From contig NZ_JADDXW010000008.1 in NCBI RefSeq assembly GCF_017183135.1, forward strand, positions 1 through 64,000: a stretch of 64,000 bases of DNA. Direction: 5' to 3'. How positions within the stretch are numbered: position 1 is the stretch's first letter; each line of letters opens with the position of its first letter. The notes below the pieces were generated by a model that was given only the letters and a program-made list of their open reading frames with translations, made no database searches and was not told where the DNA came from. Positions 31,978 to 48,261 of the stretch are shown here, in pieces. The DNA comes from Aurantimonas marina (GTDB taxonomy: Bacteria > Pseudomonadota > Alphaproteobacteria > Rhizobiales > Rhizobiaceae). A program made the position numbers and the translations under genes.

Positions 31978-32042
31978 GCGTGTCATCCCGGCCGTGGGTG
32001 GGTACCCATTCCGGCCCGTGCGAGCTACCATCGCGGGGTCGG
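31978..32042. repeat. Degenerate palindromic repeat sharing the GTCATCCCGGCC end
   Basis: The stretch begins GTCATCCCGGCC, the same end sequence as the inverted-repeat element found inside cobN, and contains the internal inverted repeat TGGGTACCCA. It lies in the short gap between the convergent aminotransferase and brnA. It may be a decayed member of the same family. Confidence 0.4.
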
Positions 32043-41224: not shown

Positions 41225-41389
41225 CGCCAGGCTTCCTTCGGTCGAACACGATCGAGCGGTCCGGCTTCGCATTGCGCGGCCGGGCGGCAATGCGTTTCGG
41301 AGACCCTGTTCGGGCGGACGCGAAATCGCTTGCGCCATAGACGCCGATCGCTACTGTGACAAATTGATCGGGAGGGCGCGAGAAACGCC
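41225..41389. other. Gap between the min unit and the B12 leader
   Basis: Nothing was recognised here apart from a probable promoter for the riboswitch transcript close to the right end (AT-rich GTGACAAATTGATC near 41357). Confidence 0.4.
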
Positions 41390-41645
41390 CGATCCGGTCG
41401 AAGGACGGTTCCCCGGCTGCCAAGCGGCTGGGGCGAAGAGGGAATGCGACGGGCCGACCCAAGCAGGGGGCCCTCATCGCAGCCGACCCCGCGACTGTAG
41501 AGCGGCGAGGTCTTCACCGCCGATTCGTGCTGAAAATGCCATGCGCATCGAGGAACGAATCGGAAAGCCACTGAAGCTTAGGCTTCGGGAAGGCGAGGCG
41601 ACGACCGACGACCCGTGAGCCAGGAGACCTGCCGGCCTTGTAACC
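41390..41645 (+). promoter_or_regulatory. Cobalamin riboswitch
   Basis: Conserved blocks appear in order: GGTTCCCC (about 41408), AAGAGGGAATGCGACGGG (from 41437), GCAGCCGACCCCGCGACTGTA (split over 41480-41500), GCCACTG (about 41568), GGGAAGGCGAGGCGACG (from 41587) and the B12 box AGCCAGGAGACC at 41618-41629. It ends about 35 bp before cbtB and should shut off the downstream uptake and synthesis genes when adenosylcobalamin is plentiful. The edges are approximate. Confidence 0.93.
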
Positions 41646-41677
41646 CGCCGCATTTCGCGGCCGTCACGGAGGTTGAT

Positions 41678-44379: not shown

Positions 44380-47300
44380 TTGCATCTTCTTCTCGCCCAG
44401 AAAGGCACGATCGACGACGGCGGCGAAGCGGTCGACCTCGGCCAGTCGCCGGCCGATATTGTGGTGCTGTCGGCGGCCGACACGGAGATCGCCAGCCTTG
44501 CGGCGGCGGCCCGGCGCCTCGGCGATGCGGCGCCGACGCTGCGCCTCGCCAACCTGCTGCGCCTCAAGCACCCGATGTCGGTCGACGCCTATGTCGAGCG
44601 AACGTTGCGCCACGCCAGGCTCGTCGTGGTGCGGTTGCTCGGCGGCGCGGCGTACTGGCCCTACGGGCTGGACGCGCTGCTTGCCAACGCGCAGGCGGCG
44701 GGAGCCAAGCTCGTGGTGCTGCCCGGCGACGACAAGCCGGATCAGGGGCTCGACCACTACACCACGATCCCGCTCGCCGAGCGCGACCGGCTCTGGCGCT
44801 ATCTGGTCGAGGGCGGGGCGGCGAATGCCGGGAAGTTCCTGGAGGGTTGCGGCGCAATCCTTGGCGGCGGCGAGTGGCCGGCCGAGGCGCAGCCGCTGCT
44901 GAAGGCCGGCGTGCTGGAGGTTGGTGCCGGCGTATCCCGCTTTTCCGACCATTCGTTCCCGAAGGCGCCATCCCTTGGTCATCTCGGCCTTGAGCTGGGA
45001 CCCGTGCCTCAAAATGTGGATACGCATCTGGACCGCGACGGCAGCGAAGACGGCTCGGAATGGATTTCGGCTCAAGGCCGGGATGACGAAGCGGAGGGAA
45101 AGCCTCTCGCGGCGATCGTGTTCTACCGGGCGCTGGTGCAGAGCGGGCAGACCGAGCCGGTGGAGGCGCTGACGCAGGAAATGGCGGAGCGGGGGCTGGA
45201 TGTGCTGCCGGTGTTCGTTTCCAGCCTGAAGGACCCGGTGTCGATCGAGACGGTGCGGGCATTGTTCGCGGACCGGGCTCCCGACGTCGTCGTCAATCTG
45301 ACCGGCTTCGCGGTGTCCTCGCCGGGCGGAGACCGCGTTCCGACGGTGCTGGAGGAACAGGGCGCCGTCGTCTTGCAGGCAGTCTTGGCGAGCGGGTCGG
45401 CGGAAAGCTGGAAGACATCCGCGCAAGGGTTGTCGGCCCGTGATCTGGCGATGAGCGTTGCGTTGCCGGAGGTTGACGGGCGGGTGTTGTCGCGCGCCAT
45501 TGCCTTCAAATCGGCTGGCGAATGGGATGCGCTAACCGAGACGGATATCGTCGCGCACCGCTCGATGGCCGACCGCGTGGCGTTCGTCGCCGAGCTCGCG
45601 GCCCGTTGGGCGCGGCTGCGGCGGAAACCTGTTTCGGAAAAGCGTGTGGCGATCCTGCTCGCCAACTATCCCAACCGGGACGGGCGGCTCGGCAACGGGG
45701 TGGGGCTCGACACGCCGGCCGGGACGATCGAGGTACTCGAGGCGATGGCGGCGGCGGGCTATCCGGTGGCGGATATTCCTGAGAGCGGCAACGCGCTGAT
45801 CGATCATCTGATGGCCGGGCCGACCAATGCCGGAACCGCGATGCGGGAGGTGCGCGAGACGCTGTCGATTGCGGCCTATCGACGGTTTTTCGCGGGACTG
45901 CCCGAGGCCGTGCGGTCGGCGGTGACGGAACGCTGGGGTGCGCCGGAGGGCGATCCATTCGTGGTGACGCATCGCGGCGAGGCGGCCTTCGCACTGCCGC
46001 TGGCGCGGTTCGGCGAGACGCTGATCGGCATCCAGCCGGCGCGCGGCTACAACATCGATCCGAAGGAAACCTACCACTCGCCCGACCTTGTGCCGCCGCA
46101 CAACTACCTGGCGCTCTACGCCTATCTCAGGTCCGCATATGAGGTGGATGCAGTCGTCCATATGGGCAAGCACGGCAATCTCGAATGGCTGCCGGGCAAG
46201 GCGCTGGCGTTGTCGGAGACCTGCTTTCCCGAGGCGGTGTTCGGGCCGTTGCCGCATCTCTACCCGTTCATCGTCAACGATCCGGGCGAGGGCACCCAGG
46301 CCAAGCGGCGGACCAGCGCCGTCATCATCGATCATCTGACGCCGCCGCTGACCCGGGCGGAAACCTACGGGCCGCTGCGGGATCTGGAGGCGCTGGTCGA
46401 CGAATATTACGAGGCGGCCGGCACCGACCCCCGGCGTCTGACGCTCTTGAAAGGGCGCATCCTCGATCTCGTACGCGACATCGGCCTCGACCGCGACGCG
46501 GGGATCGGCGCGACGGACGCCGAGGAGACGGCGCTGGAAAAGCTCGACGCCTATCTCTGCGACCTGAAGGAAATGCAGATCCGCGACGGGTTGCACGTCT
46601 TCGGCCAGGCGCCGGAGGGACGGCTGTTGACCGATCTCGTCGTGGCGCTGGCGCGGCTGCCGCGCGGGACGGAGCCGGGCGATGCGTCGCTGCACCGGGC
46701 GATCGCGGCGGATCTGCTGGGAGCGGGTTCGGCGCCGTTCGACCCGCTCGACTGCGACATGGCGGCGCCGTGGGAGGGACCATGTCCACAGGTTCTCCAC
46801 AGCCTGTCCACAGACTCCTGGCGGACGCAGGGCGACACGGTGGAGCGCATCGAACTGCTGGCGACACAGCTCGCCGGGGGCGAGATCGCGCCGCACCCGG
46901 AATGGCACTCCACAGGCGCGGTGATGGCGGATGTGACGGCGCGGCTGAAGCCTGCGGTGACGGGCTCGGGGCCGGCCGAGATCGCCGGGCTGCTGGCCGG
47001 GCTTTCCGGCCGCTTCGTGCCGCCGGGGCCGTCCGGCGCGCCGACGCGGGGACGGGCGGACGTTTTGCCGACCGGCCGTAACTTCTTTTCCGTCGATACC
47101 CGCGCGGTGCCGACCGAGGCCGCCTGGTATCTCGGAAGCAAATCGGCCGAACTCCTGGTGATCCGTCACCTCCAGGACCATGGCGACTGGCCGCGTTCGA
47201 TCGGGCTCACCGCCTGGGGCACGTCCAACATGCGCACCGGCGGCGACGACATCGCGCAGGCGCTGGCCTTGGTCGGGGCGAAGCCGGTATGGGACCGGGC

Positions 47301-48261
47301 CTCCCGGCGCGTCACCGGCTACGAGATCGTGACGCTGGCCGAACTCGGCCGGCCACGGGTCGACGTGACGCTGCGCATTTCCGGTTTCTTCCGCGACGCT
47401 TTTCCGGACCAGATCGCGCTGTTCGACCGGGCGGTCCGGGCAATCGGCGCGCTGGAGGAGGAGGCCGGCGACAACCCGATTGCCGCGCGGATGGCGGCCG
47501 AGCGGCGGGCGTTCGTGGCGGAGGGGCAGTCGCCGGAGGAGGCGGACAAGCGCGCCGGCTTCCGGATTTTCGGATCGAAGCCCGGTGCCTACGGGGCGGG
47601 GCTGCAGGCGCTGATCGACGAAAAGGGCTGGGAGACACAAGCTGATCTGGCGGAAAGCTATCTCGTCTGGGGCTCTTATGCCTACGGGGCGGATGCCGAA
47701 GGCGAGGCCGAGCGCACGAGTTTCGAGACGCGGCTTGCCGGCATCGAGGCGGTGGTCCAGAATCAGGACAATCGCGAGCACGACCTTCTGGATTCCGACG
47801 ACTACTACCAGTTCGAGGGCGGAATGACGGCGGCGGTGGAGCATGTCTCCGGCACACGGCCGGTCGTCTACCACAACGATCACTCGCGGCCCGAGCGGCC
47901 GGTCGTGCGGACGCTGGAGGAAGAAATCGGCCGGGTCGTCCGAGCCCGTGTCGTCAACCCGAAATGGATCGCCGGGATCATGCGGCACGGCTACAAGGGT
48001 GCTTTCGAGATCGCCGCGACGGTCGACTATCTCTTCGCCTTCTCGGCGACGACGGGGGCGGTGCGCGATCATCACTTCGATGCGGTCTATCAGGCCTTCG
48101 TCGCCGATGACGATTTGCGCGCCTTCATGCTGGAGAACAACCCGAACGCCTATCGCGAGATGAGCGACCGGCTCGCCGAGGCGATCGACCGCGGCTTGTG
48201 GTCGCCCCGCTCCAACTCGGCCCGTGCCCATCTCGGTGGCATCGACGGACGCTCGCCATGA
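44380..48261 (+). CDS. cobN: Cobaltochelatase large subunit CobN
   Basis: A 1293-residue subunit of the aerobic cobaltochelatase that inserts Co(II) into hydrogenobyrinate diamide with CobS and CobT. Typical segments include FYRALVQSGQTEPVEAL, VFVSSLKDP, NYPNRDGRLGNGVGLDTPAG, MGKHGNLEWLPGK and NDPGEGTQAKRR. The start is TTG 44380, homologous to the family start (HLLLAQKGTIDDGGEA). Residues 200-236 are foreign: an inverted-repeat DNA element of 110 bp is read through in frame where normal CobN has a short loop before FYRALVQSG. CobS and CobT are not in the window. Confidence 0.95.
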   Translation: MHLLLAQKGTIDDGGEAVDLGQSPADIVVLSAADTEIASLAAAARRLGDAAPTLRLANLLRLKHPMSVDAYVERTLRHARLVVVRLLGGAAYWPYGLDALLANAQAAGAKLVVLPGDDKPDQGLDHYTTIPLAERDRLWRYLVEGGAANAGKFLEGCGAILGGGEWPAEAQPLLKAGVLEVGAGVSRFSDHSFPKAPSLGHLGLELGPVPQNVDTHLDRDGSEDGSEWISAQGRDDEAEGKPLAAIVFYRALVQSGQTEPVEALTQEMAERGLDVLPVFVSSLKDPVSIETVRALFADRAPDVVVNLTGFAVSSPGGDRVPTVLEEQGAVVLQAVLASGSAESWKTSAQGLSARDLAMSVALPEVDGRVLSRAIAFKSAGEWDALTETDIVAHRSMADRVAFVAELAARWARLRRKPVSEKRVAILLANYPNRDGRLGNGVGLDTPAGTIEVLEAMAAAGYPVADIPESGNALIDHLMAGPTNAGTAMREVRETLSIAAYRRFFAGLPEAVRSAVTERWGAPEGDPFVVTHRGEAAFALPLARFGETLIGIQPARGYNIDPKETYHSPDLVPPHNYLALYAYLRSAYEVDAVVHMGKHGNLEWLPGKALALSETCFPEAVFGPLPHLYPFIVNDPGEGTQAKRRTSAVIIDHLTPPLTRAETYGPLRDLEALVDEYYEAAGTDPRRLTLLKGRILDLVRDIGLDRDAGIGATDAEETALEKLDAYLCDLKEMQIRDGLHVFGQAPEGRLLTDLVVALARLPRGTEPGDASLHRAIAADLLGAGSAPFDPLDCDMAAPWEGPCPQVLHSLSTDSWRTQGDTVERIELLATQLAGGEIAPHPEWHSTGAVMADVTARLKPAVTGSGPAEIAGLLAGLSGRFVPPGPSGAPTRGRADVLPTGRNFFSVDTRAVPTEAAWYLGSKSAELLVIRHLQDHGDWPRSIGLTAWGTSNMRTGGDDIAQALALVGAKPVWDRASRRVTGYEIVTLAELGRPRVDVTLRISGFFRDAFPDQIALFDRAVRAIGALEEEAGDNPIAARMAAERRAFVAEGQSPEEADKRAGFRIFGSKPGAYGAGLQALIDEKGWETQADLAESYLVWGSYAYGADAEGEAERTSFETRLAGIEAVVQNQDNREHDLLDSDDYYQFEGGMTAAVEHVSGTRPVVYHNDHSRPERPVVRTLEEEIGRVVRARVVNPKWIAGIMRHGYKGAFEIAATVDYLFAFSATTGAVRDHHFDAVYQAFVADDDLRAFMLENNPNAYREMSDRLAEAIDRGLWSPRSNSARAHLGGIDGRSP
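44978..45087. repeat. Inverted-repeat element inside cobN
   Basis: The ends are 20-bp inverted repeats: GTCATCTCGGCCTTGAGCTG at the left, and at the right the complement of a copy that differs at two places. The unit resembles the palindromic elements scattered between genes of many Rhizobiales, with CTCAAAATG in the middle and a GGATGACGAAG end. It keeps the cobN frame open across its length. The limits may be wider than given. Confidence 0.75.

Follow-up and report, generated by a model that had tools for sequence, protein, structure and literature searches.

A putative CGTC-type REP pair in frame in cobN of Aurantimonas marina, and repeat-filled linkers at the same joints of related CobN proteins

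How a palindromic repeat of the kind normally found between genes comes to encode part of a large enzyme is the question raised by cobN in the stretch of Aurantimonas marina DNA analysed here (64,000 nucleotides, hereafter the window). The features needed to follow the argument, in window coordinates, are these:

44380..48261, forward strand: cobN, large subunit of aerobic cobaltochelatase, 1293 aa, intact, TTG start as listed (ORF, profile and structure matches)
44911..45120, forward strand: CobN linker site 1, residues 178–247, variable and repeat-filled in many relatives
44978..45087, forward strand: putative inverted pair of CGTC-type REP units, 110 bp, CobN residues 200–236
44977..45004, forward strand: left REP unit; tag GGTC, stem 8, loop CTTGA, stem 8 (7/8 pairs), tail CCG
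45005..45060, forward strand: spacer, the remainder between the left and right REP units
45061..45088, reverse strand: right REP unit; tag CGTC, stem ATCCCGGC, loop CTTGA, stem 8 (6/8 pairs), tail CCA
45952..45957, forward strand: position of site 3, about residue 525
46714..46737, forward strand: CobN linker site 2, residues 779–786, 8 residues in the window

The palindromic unit and its family in the genome

The cobN ORF is open throughout, and its product matches the profile TIGR02257 with 1661 bits over residues 1–1286. The solved CobN structure 9uk9 aligns to residues 1–188 and 240–1287, and the gap in this alignment is the insert. Arms of 35 nt (44974–45008 and 45057–45091) form an inverted repeat that is 77% complementary. 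The RNA fold calculated for the unit has -58.9 kcal/mol, compared with a mean of -36.1 for shuffled sequences (z -6.1; none of 200 shuffles was as good). These values agree with the initial annotation, which described a 110-bp inverted-repeat unit coding for about 37 residues with the frame kept and CobN intact. The length of the unit, 110 bp, is no multiple of three. Alignment with relatives disclosed that the segment is no fixed part of the family: in L023, an uncultured Aurantimonas and the nearest named relative (87% in the best segment), the site 1 linker has 24 residues versus 70 in the window. The excess of 46 codons (138 bp) is larger than the unit, which leaves a further 28 bp or so of linker that is different as well.

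The 5′ part of the window linker (44908–44977) has no second match in the genome better than E 0.245. No match was obtained for three insert peptides in a Pfam search at E up to 10, or for the in-frame insert piece in NCBIfam at E 0.01. We infer that the segment is translated and adds little to CobN. Elsewhere in the window, a cobalamin riboswitch (RF00174, 78.5 bits) lies at 41389–41650, upstream of the cobalamin genes, and Rfam at gathering scores gave nothing else over the whole window; the names cobP, cobW, and cobO used below for neighbouring genes were assigned in this analysis.

The genome itself (G000; 4.03 Mb, 99% complete) was searched by BLAST and by patterns, and seven further full or partial copies were found. 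Five are full pairs (C23, C34, C13, C1, and C64) and two are partial, namely C14 and one within the window at 31982–32036, a decayed copy of the CGTC-type REP family outside recognisable genes. All seven adjoin long ORFs or sit between them, and one or two stop-to-stop frames of 102–254 aa run across each copy. These frames, ten in all, gave no Pfam match at E 0.01, and nine of them gave none in NCBIfam; the seven copies were consequently taken as intergenic, in line with the earlier statement that the repeat normally lies between genes. Hence the family occupies eight places in G000, six as full pairs, and only the cobN copy sits in a recognisable gene. Neither of the two findings that the initial annotation named as grounds for refutation, a segment conserved throughout the CobN family or a lack of further copies, was obtained.

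A typical unit end reads CGTC, ATCCCGGC, CTTGA, GCCGGGAT or GCCGGGAC, and CCA. The CGTC tag is present at 12 of 13 unit ends in the genome, the exception being the left end in cobN (GGTC); the stem starts with AT at 12 and the tail is CCA at 11 of the 13. Among four geometries tried, the best was a stem of 8 with a loop of 5 at 11 ends and a stem of 9 with a loop of 5 at two. The cobN copy appears decayed in this comparison, with its altered left tag and with stems paired at 7/8 and 6/8 positions. In tag, stem, loop, and tail, the geometry of the window unit fits an inverted pair of CGTC-tagged REPs.

A REPIN mobilised by a RAYT transposase was considered and rejected, since PF01797 (Y1_Tnp/RAYT) gave 0 matches at E 0.001 in this 99% complete genome; among the seven genomes searched with this profile, a match was found only in G020, with an internal stop. 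The CGTC family was matched at E 1e-5 in at least 5 of 151 genomes, including that of the window. Five candidates were scored per genome, so the per-genome match counts for this family and for the 157-bp element described below are lower bounds. At E 0.001, the window element was not matched in plasmid records.

CGTC REPs were described by Di Nocera, De Gregorio, and Rocco (2013; PMC3733652). In the available text of that paper, in-frame intragenic copies are reported from several species, including one in recB of two Xanthomonas species at about one site, and the elements seem to be without a dedicated transposase, with which the missing PF01797 match in G000 agrees. The same text assigns an 8-bp stem that begins with AT, with a 5-base loop, to family CGTC-2 and a stem of 9 to families 3 and 4. 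The A. marina units share with CGTC-2, as described there, the CGTC tag, a stem of 8–9 bp with a loop of 5, the tail CCA, a dispersed and mostly intergenic occurrence, often as pairs, and an alphaproteobacterial host; in both, some copies are in frame in genes and a dedicated transposase seems to be missing. They differ from it in the cobN copy, with its GGTC left tag and the loss of some stem pairs. The earlier remark that no such case was known for this element type is therefore contradicted by the in-frame copies in the published text. The main text of PMC3733652 contains no word starting with "cob".

The parallel drawn by the initial annotation to the palindromic elements of Rickettsia holds insofar as a dispersed palindromic repeat lies in frame in an intact cobN. 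RPE-1, RPE-4, and RPE-6 are likewise short palindromes read in frame within proteins that probably function, and RPE-4 and RPE-6 are placed in the CGTC superfamily, in families CGTC-4 and CGTC-1, in the available text of PMC3733652. The likeness is one of behaviour. A difference is that the Rickettsia elements are spread over unrelated genes, according to the accessible part of PMC10969869, whereas here the same linkers of one enzyme are concerned. Enterobacterial RU elements (Delihas 2007; PMC2759123) and Coxiella QMITEs (PMC5896051) are, as far as the accessible text goes, similar in that small intergenic repeats became in-frame protein segments, and they differ in repeat family and host; in the accessible text of these two papers, we noticed no report of one enzyme hit repeatedly at one place.

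Recurrent long linkers in CobN relatives

The closest genomes differ strongly at site 1. Within the genus, G137 has a linker of 41 residues from which the element is absent, and G041 has one of 147 residues that contains pieces of the 157-bp family. In CobN of G020 (L121), the right arm of the repeat family found in the window was located at the same place. The insertion may therefore predate the divergence from G020, with loss in L129 and L131, or two insertions may have taken place. No target-site duplication, such as a MITE would leave, is visible against relatives at this divergence, the linkers of close pairs being too diverged to show either edges or duplications. Separately, the site 1 linker of L023 holds a small palindrome, CCTCCCC-ACCA-GGGGGAGG, which is perhaps a remnant of another element.

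To place these linkers in a wider frame, we sampled 151 genomes evenly from the same family-level group and obtained a CobN match in 124 of them. The comparison covered 80 proteins of the long type (the window's own included) and 31 of a divergent type (37–42% identity), and the remaining 13 were left out. In the long type, the median length is 28.5 residues at site 1, where 20 of 80 have 44 or more, and 7 residues at site 2, where 18 of 80 have 44 or more; both sites are this long in 13 of the 80 genomes. Inserts of at least 20 aa all fall at site 1 or site 2 (after residue 781), except one of 25 aa in L214. On a quick CobN tree, at least 12 changes are required at site 1 and 13 at site 2, counts that do not tell gain from loss. 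The divergent type has 59–85 residues at site 1 in 11 of 31 (29 or fewer in the others) and 40–80 residues at site 3 in 7 of 31 (12 or fewer in the others).

A second set of 80 named loci, which overlaps in species with the 80 long-type genomes, again showed long linkers at sites 1 and 2, with 20 cobN inserts of at least 20 aa in 15 of the 80. Inserts of at least 10 aa occurred here also after residue 531 (one locus) and residue 809 (three loci, one of 32 aa), which weighs against a strict limitation to two sites. As controls, the neighbouring genes in this set had inserts of at least 20 aa in 0/69 (cobO), 1/63 (cobP), and 10/76 (cobW) cases. Nine of the ten cobW inserts were judged to reflect upstream reading of stop-to-stop frames and the tenth is a loop rich in His; on inspection by eye, no repeat peptide was recognised among the ten. 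The control is weak because these genes are short. In the CobN of L085 (Rhodospirillales), the site 1 insert carries YPHPEEARRAVS, a common alphaproteobacterial repeat peptide.

Repeat kinds, linker structure, and selection

The long linkers of the long type have the character of repeats. In 30 of 38, the longest perfect inverted repeat exceeds that of each of 20 control segments taken from the same gene, with arms reaching 41 nt, and the other eight do not surpass their controls in this respect; 32 of 38 fold below all their own control segments. At least one repeat-peptide pattern is matched by 35 and none by three, the patterns having been drawn from the same data. In the divergent type, inverted repeats beyond controls were seen in 7 of 11 linkers at site 1 and 3 of 7 at site 3, where controls for one site could overlap the insert of the other, an arrangement that works against the result.

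Five repeat kinds were distinguished in CobN, each dispersed in its host genome. The commonest, 157 bp in length, carries long terminal inverted repeats and reads "SPLEGEM" in one frame. It sits in 28 CobN linkers of 19 genomes and has matches in at least 88 of the 151 genomes, and in plasmid records it occupies 1074 places in 179 records. Among the best 40 of these 1074, 38 lie over no listed gene, the gene table being incomplete, and two are in unannotated records. All 19 genomes with the element in CobN carry it genome-wide, compared with 24 of 61 others (Fisher P 1.4e-6, lower-bound counts), and with at least five matches required the figures are 19/19 and 18/61. Carrier genomes have 6 to 18 matches each, again as lower bounds; these genome counts include the CobN copies, and palindromes are counted on both strands. 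The window genome has no match to this element. Rhizobium-specific intergenic mosaic elements (RIME) are rhizobial palindromic repeats of similar size, and the 157-bp element may be related to them.

Three further kinds were likewise matched in host genomes, and the counts given here again take in matches on both strands as well as those in CobN itself. The site 2 insert of L203 has 17 matches in G139, 66 in G103, and 25 in G011, and 2 in G046, an insert-free genus mate of G139. The site 1 insert of L145 has 28 matches in G099, and a piece of that of L149 has 45 in G054, 50 in G145, and 23 in G061.

CobN is not the only protein reached. A 52-aa insert peptide searched in eight genomes gave at least 231 matches at E 0.01 or better, and 14 listed matches in stop-free open frames of at least 240 aa were inspected. 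Two of these 14 are clearly within other proteins, where the 157-bp element is in frame: penicillin-binding protein 1C (L276, residues 498–550, TIGR02073) and urea carboxylase (L282, residues 771–827, TIGR02712), the latter insert falling between the domains CT_A_B (487–757) and CT_C_D (851–1073). Four of the matches listed are in CobN (G142 twice, G084, and G045), which makes it the most frequent, though not the sole, target among the matches listed in the eight genomes. In G142, whose CobN (L123) has one copy each at sites 1 and 2, the same peptide has at least 150 matches (150 scored of 590 candidates).

To describe the structural context, AlphaFold models were examined. In the window CobN, pLDDT is below 50 over residues 183–238, between strands 176–178 and 243–249; in a fragment of L023, it is below 50 over 140–190, a stretch that contains the site 2 insert of that protein. 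Both are the longest segments below 50 in their models, which have 131/640 (window) and 134/696 (L023 fragment) such residues in total. The L023 fragment is also of low confidence over 269–312, and no repeats were seen there, so low confidence alone is no predictor of insertion.

Shared inserts were compared in five linkers of four genome pairs, where dN/dS is 0.50–0.78 versus 0.07–0.16 in the rest of the gene: 0.56 (site 1) and 0.78 (site 2) for L125/L171, 0.63 for L121/L129 site 2, 0.50 for L122/L123 site 1, and 0.72 for L149/L181 site 1. Each estimate rests on 47–104 codons, assumes orthology, and includes flanking linker codons. Two further site 1 comparisons, window/L121 (0.30) and L121/L129 (0.61), involve possibly non-orthologous linkers. 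In addition, the same arm serves as coding sequence in two frames, one found in 12 linkers and the other in 11. Together, the high ratios and the two frames suggest that the amino acids are of little weight provided that the frame is open, and the inserts seem to be under weak constraint rather than to have gained a use. As a separate observation, the L125/L171 insert at site 2 has a dS of 0.08 versus 0.51 in the rest of the gene, as if it had been recently replaced, converted between copies, or constrained as DNA.

Probable insertion at a tolerant joint and its alternatives

The explanation we consider quite likely is that, in the lineage leading to this genome, a CGTC-type REP pair was inserted into cobN and then kept at a tolerant, flexible joint. 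The pair would have entered between the N-terminal domain of CobN and the remainder. One reading frame of the pair is stop-free, the net insertion would have left the cobN frame unbroken, and the flexible joint presumably accepts extra residues; in this scheme, retention of the segment follows from these three properties combined. More generally, resident repeats would insert widely and selection would clear the harmful insertions. Survivors in flexible joints would then decay, with in-frame deletion as a possible step, for which L148 offers an example in that it seems to retain only the end of an element that is whole in its genus mate L168.

An alternative is that the inserts are kept for use, either as an mRNA hairpin that holds back the ribosome during folding of the N-terminal domain or as a peptide that spaces or regulates CobN–CobST. 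The position of site 1 directly after the N-terminal domain, within the interval between the two strands named above, would suit such a role, as would the strong hairpin of the window unit and the many linkers with perfect arms of 24–41 nt in coding DNA. Yet site 1 is shorter than 44 residues in 60 of the 80 genomes, various families and frames are used, the shared inserts have the elevated dN/dS given above, and the apparent reduction in L148 of what L168 has whole also speaks against use. We regard this alternative as improbable.

Slightly less probable still is that the CobN linkers are preferred DNA targets, or that a first element draws more, beyond mere tolerance. The few same codons are hit time after time, and the linkers of L181 and L145 hold parts of two repeat kinds, as such a preference would predict; against it, five repeat kinds are involved, the flanking linker DNA varies among lineages, and the copies of the window's family elsewhere lie between genes. 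Finally, an old native part of CobN that is a palindrome by chance, a view with nothing more than the in-frame position in its favour, is refuted by the absence of the segment from L023, the copies elsewhere in the genome, and the fold z of -6.1.

Beyond the insertion of a REP pair at a tolerant joint, a bolder version of the idea is that the CobN linkers are a standing landing site, at which hairpin repeats of any kind that a genome carries turn into in-frame protein in parallel over many lineages; one enzyme would then hold a readable record of non-coding repeats becoming protein, and a share of the inserts would later be kept, for example to pace folding at the domain boundary. This is doubtful, if somewhat less so than the two surviving alternatives. 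The proposal of the initial annotation that non-coding repeats create new protein segments by this route fares in a mixed way, since recurrence in CobN adds weight to it whereas the inserts look weakly constrained.

A single element in cobN is of a known kind, and in-frame repeat capture is so far known as scattered cases. We found no report of repeats inside cobN in the literature searched, which excluded most subscription journals and was judged mainly from titles and the opening lines of abstracts; the repeated filling of CobN joints by several repeat kinds was likewise not found there. In CobN of the B12 pathway, five repeat kinds at the same two or three joints would amount to a replicated natural experiment, in which the insertion and decay of repeats, deletions that keep the frame, and selection acting on new protein segments would be measurable over many lineages, and the cargo-accepting joints of a large enzyme would be mapped as a by-product.
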